From an uncultured Bacteroidota bacterium (GTDB taxonomy: Bacteria > Bacteroidota > Bacteroidia > Flavobacteriales > Flavobacteriaceae): a stretch of DNA of 64,000 nucleotides. Position numbers and translations under genes: made by a program. The stretch covers positions 27,813 through 91,812 of the forward strand of contig CAJWHM010000004.1 of NCBI GenBank assembly GCA_913041125.1. Direction: 5' to 3'. The notes beneath the pieces were generated by a model. That model saw nothing but the letters and a program-made list of their open reading frames with translations. It was not told where the DNA came from and made no database searches. Shown here piece by piece: positions 1-32,831 of this stretch (within the stretch, counting starts at the first letter, position 1; each line of letters starts with the position of its first letter).

Positions 1-1439
1 GCATTCTAGCGGGAGAAGATATGTATAAAGAATTTGGAGGCTGCCCTTCAGCTGGAGTAATTGTTGTTATTGCGAAAATATCTGGTAAAAGATGCGTTAT
101 AGTAGCAAATGATCCCTCTGTTAAGGCAGGTGCATGGTTTCCAATTTCTACTAAAAAAAATCTTAGAGCACAAGAAATAGCAATGGAAAATAATATCCCT
201 ATAGTATATCTTGTAGATAGTGCAGGAATTTTTCTGCCTCTACAAGATCAACTTTTTGCTGATAAAGAGAATTTTGGACGAATTTTTAGAAATAATGCTA
301 AGATGAGTAGTAAAGGAATAATTCAAATTGCTGCAATTATGGGCAGTTGTGTTGCAGGAGGTGCTTATTTACCAATTATGTCAGATGAAGCAATAATAGT
401 TGAAAAAACAGGAAGTATTTTTTTGGCGGGTAGTTATTTAGTTAAAGCTGCAATAGGCGAAGATGTAGACAATGAATTCTTAGGAGGTGCTGAAACACAT
501 AGTGGAATAAGCGGTGTTACAGACTATAAAGTGAAAGATGATAAAGCTGCACTAGATAAAATAAGAAATCTTGTTGAAAAAATTGGGCTAAATTCTGAGG
601 CTGGATTTCAAAGAACAAAAACTAAAAAACCAATAATTTCTCAAGAAAAGTTATATGATATTATCCCAAAGGATAGCTCTCAGCCATATGATACTTATGA
701 GTTAATTAATACAATAATCGATCATAAATCTATGGATGAATATAAAAAAGATTATGGTCAAACATTGATCACATTATATGCTAAAATAGAAGGGTGGTCA
801 GTAGGTATAATAGCCAATCAAAGAAAAATTGTAAAAAGTAAAAATGGTGAAATGCAATTTGGAGGTGTCATCTATGGAGATGGAGCTGATAAAGCAACTC
901 GTTTTATTGCAAATTGTAATCAGCGTAAAATCCCATTAGTTTTTCTTCAAGATGTTACTGGCTTTATGGTAGGAAGTAAAGCTGAACATGGAGGGATAAT
1001 TAAAGATGGAGCAAAAATGGTTAATGCTGTTGCAAACTCAGTGGTTCCAAAATTTACAATAATTGTTGGTAATTCATTTGGAGCTGGCAATTATGCTATG
1101 TGTGGTAAGGCTTTTGATCCAAGGTTTATATTAGCATGGCCAACTGCAAAAATAGCGGTGATGGGAGGAAATCAAGCCTCTAACGTTTTACTACAAATAG
1201 AAAAATCCACTTTAAAAAAATCAGGAGAAAAAAAGCAAGAAACTAAAGGATCATCTTTTCGCAATAAAATTTTAGAAGATTATAATAAAAAAGCTAATGT
1301 GCTTTATGCCGCGTCACAATTATGGATTGATGCGGTAATCGACCCTATAGAAACTAGAAAATGGATTAGTATGGGTATCGAAGTTGCTAATCATTCACAA
1401 ATAGAAAAAAAATTTAACATGGGAATCTTACAAGTGTAA
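1..1439 (+). CDS. Acyl-CoA carboxylase carboxyltransferase (beta) subunit, methylcrotonyl-/propionyl-CoA carboxylase type; 5' end outside window
   Basis: ORF from 21 to 1439 is open upstream to the window edge (in-frame ILAGED before the first Met); VANDPSVKAG, YLVDSAG, FLQDVTGFMVG and GNSFGAGNYAMCGKAFDPRF motifs typical of the family. Confidence 0.9.
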   Translation, partial: ILAGEDMYKEFGGCPSAGVIVVIAKISGKRCVIVANDPSVKAGAWFPISTKKNLRAQEIAMENNIPIVYLVDSAGIFLPLQDQLFADKENFGRIFRNNAKMSSKGIIQIAAIMGSCVAGGAYLPIMSDEAIIVEKTGSIFLAGSYLVKAAIGEDVDNEFLGGAETHSGISGVTDYKVKDDKAALDKIRNLVEKIGLNSEAGFQRTKTKKPIISQEKLYDIIPKDSSQPYDTYELINTIIDHKSMDEYKKDYGQTLITLYAKIEGWSVGIIANQRKIVKSKNGEMQFGGVIYGDGADKATRFIANCNQRKIPLVFLQDVTGFMVGSKAEHGGIIKDGAKMVNAVANSVVPKFTIIVGNSFGAGNYAMCGKAFDPRFILAWPTAKIAVMGGNQASNVLLQIEKSTLKKSGEKKQETKGSSFRNKILEDYNKKANVLYAASQLWIDAVIDPIETRKWISMGIEVANHSQIEKKFNMGILQV

Positions 1440-2522
1440 AATTCTATTAGGTTTCTGGTTCATAGTTTCTTTTCTTTTTATTTTTCCACTGTATGTTTGA
1501 ATAAAATTTTTAAAACATAAAATAGCTTTTGGTGTTTCATAATCTTTTAATGGTTTGCAACTTATAATTTGCTCTTTTAGTCTTTCAATCTTTATTTCTG
1601 GATCATCTTTAACAACTAGAACTAATTTTTCAATAGCATTTGAATCTTCCATTTTATCAATAAAAAAATGGAATGATAGGTTTTGAGAAAGTTTTCGTTC
1701 TATTTGTTCTGGATGAAGTTTATAGTTTTCCAATTTAATAATGTGATCGATTCTACCTACTAATTTAAAATGATTAGGACTATATATTTCAACCTCATCA
1801 TTGGTAACTAAGTTTTCAACACCTAGTTTTGGAGCATCTATAACCAAACAATTTCGATTATCTTTTTTTACTACTATGTTTGGTAAACATTTAAATTCTG
1901 ACAAGGGATCATTCATTTCACGAATTGCAATATGGGAAAGAGTTTCCATCATTCCATATGTTTCATATGCTCTAACTTTTAATTTTATCAATTTTTTTTG
2001 TAATGAATTAGAAAGATAAGCTCCACCGATAATGAGTTTCTTGACTTTTTTTAATTCATTTAGTGAATGAAATGCTTGTATTGGGGTCATAGCAACAAAA
2101 TCATAAGATTTATCATTTTTATAAAAAGGCATTTTTGAAGGAGAAATCAAGTCTATTTCAAGTCCTAGAATCATTGCTCTAATTAACATCATTTTACCAG
2201 CTATAAAATTTGCTGGCAGACAATGGAGTGCTTTATCGCCTACGGTAACATTGAAATAATTTCCAGTAGAGATGGCACTATTTACCAAGAATTGCTTTTT
2301 TACTTTTATTTTTTTTTCACTTAAACTATTATTATCGGAACATTCAAGGTATATTGAGTCATTCGCATCTAACCAATCTAATAGAAAATCACCCATATAA
2401 TTTTCATAAATATCACCTTCTTTTATAAAATTATATGCTACTTCTTTGAGTGTTTTCTGATCATAATAATATCCATTAAGTAAAAATCGATTATGTATTT
2501 TATTATAATTAGGAATTTGCAT
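1428..2522 (-). CDS. MenE-like AMP-binding (o-succinylbenzoate-CoA ligase-like) protein, degenerate P-loop
   Basis: CLPANFIAGKMMLIRAM, YETYGMMETLSHIA, KLVGRIDHIIK and SGKIKR motifs of short Bacteroidota MenE. Confidence 0.75.
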   Translation of the reverse strand: MQIPNYNKIHNRFLLNGYYYDQKTLKEVAYNFIKEGDIYENYMGDFLLDWLDANDSIYLECSDNNSLSEKKIKVKKQFLVNSAISTGNYFNVTVGDKALHCLPANFIAGKMMLIRAMILGLEIDLISPSKMPFYKNDKSYDFVAMTPIQAFHSLNELKKVKKLIIGGAYLSNSLQKKLIKLKVRAYETYGMMETLSHIAIREMNDPLSEFKCLPNIVVKKDNRNCLVIDAPKLGVENLVTNDEVEIYSPNHFKLVGRIDHIIKLENYKLHPEQIERKLSQNLSFHFFIDKMEDSNAIEKLVLVVKDDPEIKIERLKEQIISCKPLKDYETPKAILCFKNFIQTYSGKIKRKETMNQKPNRILHL

Positions 2523-2524
2523 AA

Positions 2525-3427
2525 TTAAATTTTTACCAAAAGTTTATTTTTCAAATCAGACCATTTGTATTTTTTATACATATAAATGTAAAATAATGGA
2601 TATAAAATTAACATTGAAATAATTGTTTCGCCTACCAATGATGGATCAGAAATATCAATTAAAATTGATTCTGTTTGAAATGCTGTCCATGATGAGGTAA
2701 CTAAAAGAGCAGTTATTAAATTATTAGCTGCATGAAAACCTAAAGCTAATTCAATACCTTGGTCCATAAGGGTAATTATTCCGAGAAAAAGTCCAGTACC
2801 TATATAATAAATTAAAATCCCTAATCCTAATTTTTGGACTTCTGGATTAAAAATATGAAGGCATCCAAAAATAAAAGAAGTTAAAAATAATCCAATCCAA
2901 GGCCTTTTAAAGTACAAACTAAATCCCTGAAATAAATATCCTCTGAATAACAATTCTTCCAAACTAGTTTGAATAGGTATTAAAATAAAACCAATAATTA
3001 ATAGAATAAAGAATTTCTCAAACTTAAAATTGATTTGATAATCTTCTGAATTGATAAAAAAATCTGCAGAAATAAAAGTTATAGTAATTGATCCCCAAAG
3101 AATAAAAGAGTGAATAATTCTGCGCCAATCAACTTTACTTCTAGATGTAGTGATACTTACAAAATTTCGATTATGTAATTTTTTAATTACTAGATACAAA
3201 CCTAAAAATCCAAAAACAAAAGGAATTAAAATTAAAAATAATTGTAAATTCTTGTCTAGGTTCCTTAAAGCGATCATTGGATCTCCTCCAGCCTCAGAAA
3301 TAGCGTCAGCTGTTATAAAAAGTGAAAGTGGTAATTGGCCAAGAATTGAAAATATTATAACAATGAATGAACCAAGTAAATATTTCCAAAACGGATTTGT
3401 GTTTAACGTATCCTGTTTTAAGAACAT
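2525..3427 (-). CDS. CPBP family intramembrane metalloprotease-like protein
   Basis: EELLFRGYLFQG motif, multiple TM helices, late FGCLH and FHAANN motifs. Confidence 0.85.
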   Translation of the reverse strand: MFLKQDTLNTNPFWKYLLGSFIVIIFSILGQLPLSLFITADAISEAGGDPMIALRNLDKNLQLFLILIPFVFGFLGLYLVIKKLHNRNFVSITTSRSKVDWRRIIHSFILWGSITITFISADFFINSEDYQINFKFEKFFILLIIGFILIPIQTSLEELLFRGYLFQGFSLYFKRPWIGLFLTSFIFGCLHIFNPEVQKLGLGILIYYIGTGLFLGIITLMDQGIELALGFHAANNLITALLVTSSWTAFQTESILIDISDPSLVGETIISMLILYPLFYIYMYKKYKWSDLKNKLLVKI

Positions 3428-3431
3428 AAAA

Positions 3432-4778
3432 TCATATGAATAACAATAATATAATAGCTAAACAAAAAACAATTTGATAATATATAGTCTGAATATTGTA
3501 GTTAACCAATTCTCTCGAATCAAAATATTTAAATAAACCACGGAAAATATATAATCCATAAACTGTTAAAAGAGATAAAATTATATAGAATCCAGTAATA
3601 TTAGGATTATTTAAAGATTTTGAAAATGAATCAAAAAAATAATATGTTGAAATTAAAATTAAAATTAAATTCAAAAAATAGATCCATCTCGACATTTTTT
3701 TACCGAATAAAACGACCAGGTTTATCTTGTCTGATTTTTTATCTGATTTATAATCTGGGTACTGATTAATGAAAAGAATATTTGTAGTAAGCAAACCGAG
3801 TGGTATACCGATCAATAAAAACAATTTAAATGCTTCAAAATTAATTGCAACTTCAGAATTTGACATTGCAAAAAAGCTACCCAAGGTTAACAAAGGTCCA
3901 AATGTTAGAAATATAGTTAGTTCACCTAAACCTTTTCTTGCAGATAGTCTCAAAGGTTCGGCAGTATAAAAATAAGCAAGAAGCGAGCCAACAAGTCCAA
4001 TTATTATTATTGCATAAATATTATTAAATGACCCTGTCTGTAAAAATATATTAATGGAAAGAATTATTACACAAATCAGAGCGCTAGCAATCATAAAAGT
4101 TCCTAATTTTTTTGTGTTTTTTAAAGTTATAAGACCAAGCTCAATTGCTCTACTTCCACCTGATATTTGGGCTCCTCTTAATATTAGTGATTTATCTCCA
4201 ACATTAAAATATTCGTTGTTGTTTTCATCTGTCCCTGACTTCACATCAAAATAATCATTGTATAGGTTCCCAAAAATATGAACACATATTACACCCAAAA
4301 TAGATACTATACTATTGAATATGGATAAAGAGTTATATTGACTTAACATTACAGATACAATTATCATTGGAAGAATTGATGCTAAAGTGAAACCTCCCCT
4401 GGTTATTGCAATCCCTTTTATGATTTTAGTAGTTAAATTAATAGGAATATTTACTTCCTCATTAATCTCTTTAGTAATACCACAATAACCTGTTTGAGGC
4501 TGATCTTTACCATTAGCGAAGTTTGGAGTAATTAATATCTCAGCATTAAACTTTGAACCATCTTTTTTTATAAAATTTGTTTTAACCAAAGATTTCCCCT
4601 TTTTGTTAGCTACTTCTAACCATCCTAAAACATTTTGAATTACAATTTCCCCTGGGGAAAAAATAGATACCCTCTTCTTTCCAATAAGTTCTTTTTTTGT
4701 ATATCCAAACATCTCTAGAGCTCCTTTATTCATTTCTTGAATAACACCCTCCATATCACAAATTATAACACTCTTCAT
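3432..4778 (-). CDS. PAS domain-UbiA/MenA-like prenyltransferase fusion
   Basis: N-terminal PAS/PAC (ICDMEGVIQEMNKGALEMFGYTKKELIGK...GYCGITKEI) in frame with a polytopic UbiA domain (NLYNDYFDVKSGTD, INQYPDYKSDK). Confidence 0.85.
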   Translation of the reverse strand: MKSVIICDMEGVIQEMNKGALEMFGYTKKELIGKKRVSIFSPGEIVIQNVLGWLEVANKKGKSLVKTNFIKKDGSKFNAEILITPNFANGKDQPQTGYCGITKEINEEVNIPINLTTKIIKGIAITRGGFTLASILPMIIVSVMLSQYNSLSIFNSIVSILGVICVHIFGNLYNDYFDVKSGTDENNNEYFNVGDKSLILRGAQISGGSRAIELGLITLKNTKKLGTFMIASALICVIILSINIFLQTGSFNNIYAIIIIGLVGSLLAYFYTAEPLRLSARKGLGELTIFLTFGPLLTLGSFFAMSNSEVAINFEAFKLFLLIGIPLGLLTTNILFINQYPDYKSDKKSDKINLVVLFGKKMSRWIYFLNLILILISTYYFFDSFSKSLNNPNITGFYIILSLLTVYGLYIFRGLFKYFDSRELVNYNIQTIYYQIVFCLAIILLLFI

Positions 4779-4822: not shown

Positions 4823-5236
4823 TTAAATATTTTTTATAAATGTTGTTAACTTACAAATTGAGATCAAATTATCATCTTCATCGGTTACGCGTATCTCCCA
4901 CAATTGAATCCTTTTCCCTATATTAATCGGCTTGGCTGTAGCATATACAAATCCTTTGGAAATACTTTTTATATGATTTGCAGTAATTTCGATTCCCCTT
5001 ACTACTGCTTTTGGATTTTTATTTAATACGAAAACAGCTGCACTTCCAACACTTTCAGCAAGTGCTGCTGTTGCTCCTCCATGTAATATACCGTCAGGCT
5101 GATATACTTTTTTATTTACTGGCATTCGAGCTTGTAAAAAATTTTCTCCAACATCAACGTATTCAATTTTTAATGTTTCCATCAAGGTATTTTTACAGAT
5201 CTCATTTACAATTGCTAAAATTTGTTTTTTTTCCAT
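4823..5236 (-). CDS. Hotdog-fold thioesterase (PaaI/MenI-like)
   Basis: QPDGILHGGATAALAESVGS motif; next to menE/menA-like genes. Confidence 0.85.
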   Translation of the reverse strand: MEKKQILAIVNEICKNTLMETLKIEYVDVGENFLQARMPVNKKVYQPDGILHGGATAALAESVGSAAVFVLNKNPKAVVRGIEITANHIKSISKGFVYATAKPINIGKRIQLWEIRVTDEDDNLISICKLTTFIKNI

Positions 5237-5286: not shown

Positions 5287-5317
5287 AAACCTTCTGTTAT
5301 ATTAGAACAGAAGGTTT
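5287..5317 (-). terminator. Rho-independent terminator of dnaK
   Basis: Perfect inverted repeat AAACCTTCTGTT-n7-AACAGAAGGTTT, T-rich on the minus strand. Confidence 0.8.
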
Positions 5318-29846: not shown

Positions 29847-31109
29847 ATGATTAACTCAATTTTAAATTTACCCTTAATGATACAAGATACTGCTGCAGTT
29901 GAAGGTGACATGGGAATGCTTTGGATGTTATTATCAGGTATCTTAGTATTCTTCATGCAAGCAGGATTTACACTAGTTGAAACCGGTATGACGCAATCCA
30001 AAAATGCTGTTAACATTGCGATGAAAAACTTTTTAGATATCAGTGTAGGATCAATCACATACTGGCTAGTTGGATATTCTCTTATGTATGGCGACACTTC
30101 AAACGGTTGGTTTTTTTGGAGTGGTCTTTTTCAAGGTGAAGGTGCAGACTTATTCTTTCAAACAATGTTTGCAGCAACAGCTGCAACAATAGTTTCCGGT
30201 GCAATAGCAGGGAGAACAAAATTTGAAACATATGTTGTTTTCACCTTAATTATGACTGCAATAATTTATCCTATTTCTGGTGGATGGCAATGGCAAGGGT
30301 CAGGCTGGTTAACTGAACTAGGATTCATTGATTTTGCTGGATCTTCAATTGTACACGGTGTTGGAGGATTTGCAGCATTTGTAGCAGCTTACATGGTGGG
30401 ACCAAGAATGGGAAAATATGTAGATGGAAAAGTAATTCCAATTCCTGGACATAATCAAATCTTAGCAACCTTAGGTGTTTTCATTTTATGGTTAGGATGG
30501 TTTGGTTTTAACGGTGGATCTCAATTAGCTTGGGGTGGAGATGATGCAGTTGGTGCTTCTACAGTTGTTCTAGTAACTAATTTAGCAGCAGCAGCAGGAG
30601 CACTTGGTGCTCTTTTTACAACATGGATATATCTCGGTAAACCCAATATCGCACATACACTCAACGGAGCACTTGCAGGTCTTGTAAGTATAACTGCTGG
30701 ATGTGGTAATATGACACCTGGCGGAGCACTAATGGCTGGGCTAATTGGTGGTATAATTGTTGTCTTTTCTATTGAATTAATTGAGAAAAAGCTCAAGGTT
30801 GATGATGCTATAGGTGCGGTTTCAGTTCATGGAGTAGCTGGATTCTGGGGAACAATTGTTATTGGTCTTTGGGGAGTCGATGGTGATGCTGGTATTGGCT
30901 TATTTAATGGCGGAGGCGCTGGTCAATTTATTTCACAATTAATTGGTGCAATTGCATATATGGTATGGGCACTTGTTACTTCTTTTATAGTGTTTACAAT
31001 TCTCAAGAAAACTATGGGATTAAGAGTAACGGAACAAGAAGAAATTGAAGGTCTTGATCTTTCGGAGCATGGAGCTATAGCCTACGCTGGAAAAAGAAAA
31101 AGAGAATAG
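29847..31109 (+). CDS. amt: Ammonium transporter (Amt1)
   Basis: FFMQAGFTLVETGMTQSKNAVNIAMKN, DFAGSSIVHGVGG, AVSVHGVAGFWGT. Confidence 0.97.
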   Translation: MINSILNLPLMIQDTAAVEGDMGMLWMLLSGILVFFMQAGFTLVETGMTQSKNAVNIAMKNFLDISVGSITYWLVGYSLMYGDTSNGWFFWSGLFQGEGADLFFQTMFAATAATIVSGAIAGRTKFETYVVFTLIMTAIIYPISGGWQWQGSGWLTELGFIDFAGSSIVHGVGGFAAFVAAYMVGPRMGKYVDGKVIPIPGHNQILATLGVFILWLGWFGFNGGSQLAWGGDDAVGASTVVLVTNLAAAAGALGALFTTWIYLGKPNIAHTLNGALAGLVSITAGCGNMTPGGALMAGLIGGIIVVFSIELIEKKLKVDDAIGAVSVHGVAGFWGTIVIGLWGVDGDAGIGLFNGGGAGQFISQLIGAIAYMVWALVTSFIVFTILKKTMGLRVTEQEEIEGLDLSEHGAIAYAGKRKRE

Positions 31110-31589: not shown

Positions 31590-32831
31590 ATGGAAAGTAC
31601 CGCGCTTTTTACTGCTAATAATGTATGGATGATGATCTGTACTGCACTTGTATTTTTTATGCACTTAGGATTCTCATTTTTAGAGATTGGCCTAACTCGA
31701 CAAAAAAATACAGTAAATATTCTATTTAAAAACTTTTTTGTAATTACTATAGGACTCCTTCTCTATGCAATCGGAGGGTTCAACTTAATGTACCCTGGAT
31801 TTGAAGAGGGTGCAACAGGTTTTCTGAAATTTGCTGGTTTTGGAATTACAGCTCCAGAAGGAGGAATGACCGAACAATATGCATCAAGTGGTTACACATG
31901 GTGGACAGATTTTCTGTTTCAAGGTATGTTCGCTGCAACTGCAGCAACAATTGTTTCGGGAGCTGTAGCTGAAAGAATTAAACTAAAAAGTTTTATGCTT
32001 TTTACAATATTTTATGTAGGAATTGTCTACCCTATTATAGGATCATGGAAATGGGGTGGTGGATTTTTAGACCAATGGGGCTTCTATGACTTTGCTGGTT
32101 CAACACTAGTACATTCTGTTGGAGGATGGGCAGCTTTAATTGCGGTTTATCTTCTTGGAGCTCGCATAGGTAAATTTGGAGATGATGGTAAGTCTAAGGC
32201 AATACCTGGCCACAACATTCCTCTTGCTGCAGCAGGAGTTTTAATTCTTTGGCTTGGATGGTTCGGATTTAATGGCGGATCTGTTTTGTCCGCTGATCCA
32301 GAATTAACATCACTAACACTTGTAACAACTTGTTTAGCTGCTGCTGCAGGTGGTGTAACTTCAAGTATTGTTTCAAATTTATTATACAAAAATTATGACC
32401 TAACTATGTTTATGAATGGCGTCTTGGGAGGACTTGTTGGGATTACAGCTGGCGCAGATCAAATGAGTCCTACTGACGCTATACTAATTGGTATAATCGC
32501 TGGTGTCATAATCGTTTTTGGAATTGCTCTTATTGACAGATTAAAACTAGACGATCCTGTTGGTGCAATTGCTGTTCATTTAATTTGTGGAATTTGGGGG
32601 ACTTTAGCAGTTGGTGTTTTTGGAGCCATGGCAAGTCTAGATCAATTTTTAGTACAATTGATTGGAGTGGGAATTATTGGAGCTTTTTCAGTTATCACCT
32701 CTCTTACAATTTTATATCTCATAAAGAAAACACTGGGATTAAGGGTAGAAAAAGATGAAGAGCTTAAAGGCCTTGATTTGTCAGAACACGGAATGGATGC
32801 TTATGCAGATTTTCGTCTAAATCAACATTAA
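31590..32831 (+). CDS. amt: Ammonium transporter (Amt2)
   Basis: FFMHLGFSFLEIGLTRQKNTVNILFKN, DFAGSTLVHSVGG, AIAVHLICGIWGT. Confidence 0.97.
   Translation: MESTALFTANNVWMMICTALVFFMHLGFSFLEIGLTRQKNTVNILFKNFFVITIGLLLYAIGGFNLMYPGFEEGATGFLKFAGFGITAPEGGMTEQYASSGYTWWTDFLFQGMFAATAATIVSGAVAERIKLKSFMLFTIFYVGIVYPIIGSWKWGGGFLDQWGFYDFAGSTLVHSVGGWAALIAVYLLGARIGKFGDDGKSKAIPGHNIPLAAAGVLILWLGWFGFNGGSVLSADPELTSLTLVTTCLAAAAGGVTSSIVSNLLYKNYDLTMFMNGVLGGLVGITAGADQMSPTDAILIGIIAGVIIVFGIALIDRLKLDDPVGAIAVHLICGIWGTLAVGVFGAMASLDQFLVQLIGVGIIGAFSVITSLTILYLIKKTLGLRVEKDEELKGLDLSEHGMDAYADFRLNQH

Follow-up and report, generated by a model that had tools for sequence, protein, structure and literature searches.

A PAS domain fused to a distinct UbiA-family prenyltransferase occupies the place of a menaquinone gene block in marine Flavobacteriales

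Menaquinone is usually the sole respiratory quinone of Bacteroidota. Among the closest known relatives of the PAS-UbiA fusion protein characterized here is MenA (TIGR00751, PRK06080), with which it shares the UbiA fold, the first Asp-rich motif (NDxxDxxxGxD), the operon position, the best NCBIfam family matches (DHNA prenyltransferase models), and the presence of UbiE in the genome. It differs from MenA in the added PAS domain, a second motif of the form NQxPDxxxD instead of NNxRDxxxD, a score below the MenA cut-off, its position on another branch of the tree, and the lack of MenF, MenD, MenB, and MenC genes beside it. Among solved structures, UBIAD1 (6e-14, profile A3; 8djk and 8djm) is the one closest to the UbiA half, and it likewise functions where the organism itself does not synthesize the naphthoquinone ring; unlike the fusion, UBIAD1 is eukaryotic and has no PAS domain. 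Further relatives are the stand-alone 306-amino-acid UbiA proteins of Dethiobacter and other Bacillota (L063-L071), which carry NQYPDYEAD as their second motif and are 24-29% identical overall to the fusion, but lack the PAS domain. Just upstream of such Bacillota genes, a GGDEF-like (PelD type) or receiver-GGDEF gene was observed at three loci (L063, 3507-3920; L065, 4945-5493; L066, 5097-5867), which is another pairing of an NQYPD-type UbiA with a sensory domain.

On the sensory side, the PAS domains of NifL, Aer, and CPS_1291 (2gj3, 8dik, and 3lyx, respectively) have the same fold as the PAS domain of the fusion (TM about 0.74-0.79). The NifL and Aer domains are FAD redox sensors, and the fusion PAS is likened to them by fold alone; its identity to the three domains is only 19-25%, and two invariant cysteines set it apart. 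With regard to gene content, Porphyromonas strains lacking menF, menD, menC, menE, and menB but possessing menA and ubiE grow on DHNA (PMC9704088). These DHNA-dependent Porphyromonas and Tannerella resemble the fusion genomes in the loss of menF, menD, menC, and menB and in the retention of a prenyltransferase and ubiE (PMC9704088). However, they keep a gene annotated as menA and have lost menE, whereas in the fusion genomes menA is replaced and MenE appears to persist as a conserved pseudoenzyme.

The window analyzed here, a 64,000-nucleotide stretch of a contig from an uncultured member of the Flavobacteriaceae, carries the fusion gene at 3432-4778 on the minus strand as a single open reading frame (ORF) of 448 amino acids, with an ATG start and no internal stop. 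Both halves predicted for this protein exceeded their family thresholds. The PAS domain (residues 3-105; 4464-4772, minus strand) matches Pfam PAS_9 over residues 3-92 with 37.9 bits (cut-off 27) and NCBIfam sensory_box with 40.5 bits (cut-off 22.9), and the UbiA prenyltransferase domain (residues 136-414; 3537-4373, minus strand) matches Pfam PF01040 with 77 bits (cut-off 34.2). An AlphaFold model of the full-length protein (mean pLDDT 80.9) shows a PAS fold followed by a UbiA fold, and Foldseek pairs the N-terminal part with the PAS domains 3lyx and EcDOS and the C-terminal part with the UbiA enzymes 4tq4 and UBIAD1 (8djk). Both PAS_9 and UbiA score in all 16 divergent fusion proteins of alignment A3. 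The fusion is thus a member of the known UbiA prenyltransferase family in a variant form with an added PAS domain.

The UbiA half contains the two Asp-rich motifs that had been described for it, namely NLYNDYFDVKSGTD (residues 171-184; 4227-4268, minus strand) and NQYPDYKSD (residues 338-346; 3741-3767, minus strand), with N171, N174, D175, and D178 of the first and N338, D342, and D346 of the second invariant in the divergent fusions aligned. In the second motif, proline replaces the arginine of canonical MenA, so that it reads NQxPDxxxD and does not fit the MenA form NxRDxxxD; the canonical MenA of the same genus has NNMRDRQSD at this place. The NQxPD form is common to the fusions and the stand-alone UbiA proteins of Bacillota. 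Against the TIGR00751 menA model the fusion scores 59.6 bits, below the cut-off of 102.15, compared to 237.8 bits for the same-genus canonical MenA, and in an NCBIfam scan the homogentisate prenyltransferase model gave no match. A tree of the UbiA part places the 23 fused rows, without exception, on the same side of a branch (86% of bootstraps, support 69/98), and the same-genus canonical MenA stands apart on a long, fully supported branch. The original prediction of a distinct UbiA subfamily is therefore borne out by the model score and by the separate branch.

The fusion is widespread. A homologue scan with one genome per species yielded 41 loci, 30 of which are fusions (28 full-length) and 11 stand-alone UbiA proteins of Bacillota. 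About 30 public loci thus encode it, with identities of 55-78% and almost always in a single ORF, which excludes chance or misassembly; an assembly fusion was ruled out by the recurrence of the same arrangement in these independent loci. Among the homologues, the PAS domain was never seen as a separate gene. The ORFs of marine Flavobacteriales, from single-cell and metagenome-assembled genomes, are mostly about 445-457 amino acids long. In one MED-G11 metagenome-assembled genome (L060, 5980-7359), a frameshift, probably due to a sequencing error, interrupts the fusion copy. Within the genus of the window, 11 of 37 genomes contain the fusion, as do two genomes from a different family within the order. 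A search with the PAS domain only, across 396 genomes of the phylum, added 11 further fusions from two distant Bacteroidota families, referred to here as f39 (nine genomes) and f29 (two genomes); their ORFs are mostly 422-463 amino acids long (one of 214 and one of 527), and the UbiA part was also present in all seven f29/f39 loci that were read.

Comparison with a non-fusion genome of the same genus (G009) shows what the fusion replaces. In G009 the order is dnaK-menI-menF-menD-menB-menA (301 amino acids)-menC-CPBP-menE, followed by a PCC carboxylase on the other strand; menD, menB, and menA were named by HMM and the rest by position and similarity, menF being isochorismate-synthase-like. In the window the order is dnaK, menI, PAS-UbiA, CPBP, menE, and carboxylase, and the interval from menI to CPBP shrinks from 5,757 bp to 1,395 bp. 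The PAS-UbiA gene replaces the menF-menD-menB-menA-menC block (5.8 kb) in place; it stands for a lost men block and is not a sensor added onto an ordinary menaquinone pathway. A CPBP tree built to count such swaps within the genus gave one to three changes, on a short alignment with weak support.

After a terminator-like hairpin between dnaK and menI (5287-5317, minus strand), the window contains a tightly packed four-gene unit with gaps of 44, 4, and 2 bp. It begins with a MenI-like hot-dog thioesterase (4823-5236, minus strand), which has an orthologue in the classical operon of the same genus, and continues with the fusion, a CPBP (Rce1-like) membrane protease located 4 bp after it (2525-3427, minus strand; PF02517, 54.5 bits), and a MenE orthologue (1428-2522, minus strand). 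The adenylation motifs of MenE are lost: the ATP-binding motif ETSGTTATPK of G009 becomes ECSDNNSLSEKK, with loss of SGTTATPK, and YGMTE becomes YGMME. The AMP-binding score falls from 51.3 bits in G009 to 25.6 bits (cut-off 29.9), and all seven aligned copies from fusion genomes have a degenerate P-loop. Since MenE beside the fusion is nevertheless under purifying selection (omega 0.09-0.15), motif alignment and scores suggest a conserved pseudoenzyme. Elsewhere in the window, two adjacent divergent ammonium transporter genes of marine type (29847-31109 and 31590-32831, plus strand) follow a porin-like gene.

Gene content was assessed in 42 fusion genomes, comprising 11 of the same genus, 20 further Flavobacteriales, and 11 of f29/f39. 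Completeness is 79% for the window's own genome and 89% for its relative G001, and several fusion genomes are incomplete, which limits single absences; the f29/f39 genomes are 99-100% complete, one being a single 2.84 Mb contig, and no single genome determines the pattern seen across all 42. Within the genus, MenD exceeded its cut-off in 0 of 11 fusion genomes versus 21 of 26 non-fusion genomes (Fisher p 5e-6, not corrected for relatedness). It was likewise below cut-off in the 20 further Flavobacteriales and the 11 f29/f39 fusion genomes, hence in all 42. MenB was over its cut-off only in non-fusion genomes (0/31 Flavobacteriales fusion genomes), and the MqnA/D family (PF02621) had no match in the same 31, by which the futalosine pathway was ruled out for the lineage of the window. 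HPPD was absent from the 11 same-genus and 18 further marine fusion genomes (29/31) and present in fusion genomes of f6 and f39; its absence from the same-genus fusion genomes speaks against a homogentisate route there. UbiE/MenG, by contrast with these losses, was retained over its cut-off in 21 of the 31 Flavobacteriales fusion genomes (the window's own among them) and in all 11 of f29/f39 (32/42 in all). The window's own UbiE passes the UbiE/demethylmenaquinone equivalog model and reaches 188.5 bits against the MpqE cut-off of 335.

The UbiA family is represented in the window's own genome by CyoE and the fusion only. In a census of 57 genomes, canonical menA-type matches of 301-312 amino acids occurred only in non-fusion genomes, and no stand-alone menA was found alongside the fusion; in most fusion genomes CyoE is the sole other clear UbiA member, and a few hold a further UbiA of about 300 amino acids. 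This third UbiA (about 298-314 amino acids, e.g., G004:C5:154406-155056), possibly EboC/Ubi-297, is found in most non-fusion and few fusion genomes. In the close relative G001, read in stretches of its genome, we found no orthologue of MenF, MenD, MenB, MenC, or canonical MenA, and no MqnA-like protein, even with a profile built from the f29/f39 proteins. NqrF (554 bits) is encoded in G001, as is a CoxA homologue (588 bits, below the curated cut-off of 670.75), and this bacterium therefore needs a quinone.

Two features were particular to f29/f39. One divergent MqnA-like PF02621 protein occurs in seven of the 11 fusion genomes (f29 and several f39) and gave no NCBIfam match in the four proteins tested; a DLGEEWFD-type motif is present in those at L112 (1444-2181, plus strand), L113 (1300-2061, minus strand), L110 (1423-2268, minus strand), and L111 (1441-2268, minus strand). 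It could possibly represent the start of an unknown quinone route. In two f39 genomes, homogentisate 1,2-dioxygenase is encoded about 4-5 kb from PAS-UbiA (L102, 3360-4643, minus strand; L103, 7397-8692, plus strand).

The PAS domain is more constrained than the enzyme to which it is attached. In five pairwise comparisons between closely related loci, omega was 0-0.057 for the PAS domain versus 0.087-0.169 for the UbiA part; identity to the window in marine lineages was 72-91% versus 48-73%, and in f6 66-68% versus 47-49%. Positions invariant in 16 divergent fusions include K2, S3, C7, D8, E10, G11, R36, V37, S38, F40, S41, Q48, N49, W53, and C99, among others. When the PAS domain was modelled alone (AlphaFold and Foldseek), it matched 3lyx with a TM of 0.79 and NifL 2gj3 with 0.77. 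In this model C7 (4758-4760, minus strand) lies in the first and C99 (4482-4484, minus strand) in the last PAS strand, and a C7-C99 pair is possible because first and last strands adjoin each other in PAS folds. Redox, light, or ligand gating of menaquinone synthesis had also been suggested, with a possible heme or FAD pocket in the PAS domain. The flavin-binding cysteine motif of LOV photoreceptors is GxNCRFLQ, and heme PAS domains of the FixL/DOS type are recognized by a proximal heme histidine. The PAS sequence of the window contains neither this motif nor any histidine, which argues against LOV photochemistry and FixL/DOS-type heme, making both unlikely; light and heme were thus not supported.

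We propose, with about even confidence, that the fusion is a distinct and sole quinone-ring prenyltransferase with an obligate PAS domain, which displaced the men block and prenylates a precursor that is either imported or produced in a way not yet described. The enzyme would be a MenA/UBIAD1-like UbiA protein carrying a cytoplasmic PAS domain, and would have taken the place of the classical menF-menD-menB-menA-menC block in a Flavobacteriales lineage. Because the fusion is the only quinone-type prenyltransferase left, occupies the position of the lost pathway in the operon, and is accompanied by UbiE, it most likely attaches the prenyl chain to DHNA or a related naphthoquinol, and the resulting demethylmenaquinone would then be methylated by UbiE/MenG. 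The PAS domain is read as an obligate part since all members found carry it and selection constrains it more tightly than the enzyme; with its two invariant cysteines it probably serves to bind either a redox cofactor or the aromatic compound to be prenylated, and a site near the cytoplasmic active site may gate or assist prenyl transfer. The ring precursor would come from neither known route, and its uptake, as in DHNA-dependent Porphyromonas, has a direct precedent in the phylum (PMC9704088). Salvage is strained, however, by the fact that whole clades of free-living bacteria, some with full-size genomes, share the gap, and the retention of MenI and MenE orthologues with no obvious role also counts against the proposed explanation.

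Several other readings have to be weighed. The fusion may stand at the end of a de novo pathway yet to be discovered, with upstream enzymes unrelated to MenB/D and canonical MqnA-E, a possibility we hold only tentatively. The 11 near-complete f29/f39 genomes, all with UbiE and without MenD, are consistent with it, and the MqnA-like protein in seven of them hints in the same direction; but that protein is absent from the marine lineages, including G001 when searched with the f29/f39-built profile, candidates for upstream enzymes were not found, and the loss pattern fits known DHNA auxotrophs. Far less probable is a homogentisate (plastoquinone-type) or other benzenoid prenyltransferase in cells using a non-naphthoquinone: although homogentisate dioxygenase lies near the fusion in two f39 genomes and HPPD occurs in f39 and f6, HPPD is missing from the 29 marine fusion genomes noted above, the best family matches are DHNA rather than homogentisate prenyltransferases, and the methyltransferase passes the UbiE/demethylmenaquinone model while remaining below the MpqE cut-off.

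It is also improbable, though somewhat less so, that the fusion is non-respiratory and makes a specialized prenylated metabolite, like EboC/Ubi-297, with the quinone imported whole. Its score below the MenA cut-off would suit this, and whole-quinone uptake has a precedent in P. pasteri, which is fed by MK4 (PMC9704088); yet the fusion sits exactly at the menaquinone operon position, is the sole UbiA besides CyoE in its own genome, and is under purifying selection, and UbiE is retained. As to the N-terminal half, a mere dimerization or membrane-anchoring module with no sensory or redox role appears unlikely. PAS domains often dimerize, and no cofactor-specific motif was recognized in this one, but both cysteines and many further positions do not vary among divergent fusions, and with omega at 0-0.06 it evolves under stronger constraint than the enzyme half, whereas a mere tether would be expected to drift more.

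Many marine lineages, most of them uncultured, and two distant families are thus without either known route to the menaquinone ring, yet they have retained the PAS-prenyltransferase and the final methyltransferase. In a literature search, we did not find a PAS-UbiA fusion described; it would be an example of a membrane enzyme of quinone synthesis that has a sensor-type domain as an integral part. We tentatively hypothesize that PAS-UbiA may mark an undescribed form of naphthoquinone-ring acquisition, whether a third route or a dedicated salvage, in which a redox or ligand site of the PAS domain would act directly on the precursor. The fusion provides a clean genetic marker for the trait. Either oceanic bacteria share a quinone precursor, which would help explain their resistance to cultivation, or a third quinone pathway exists.
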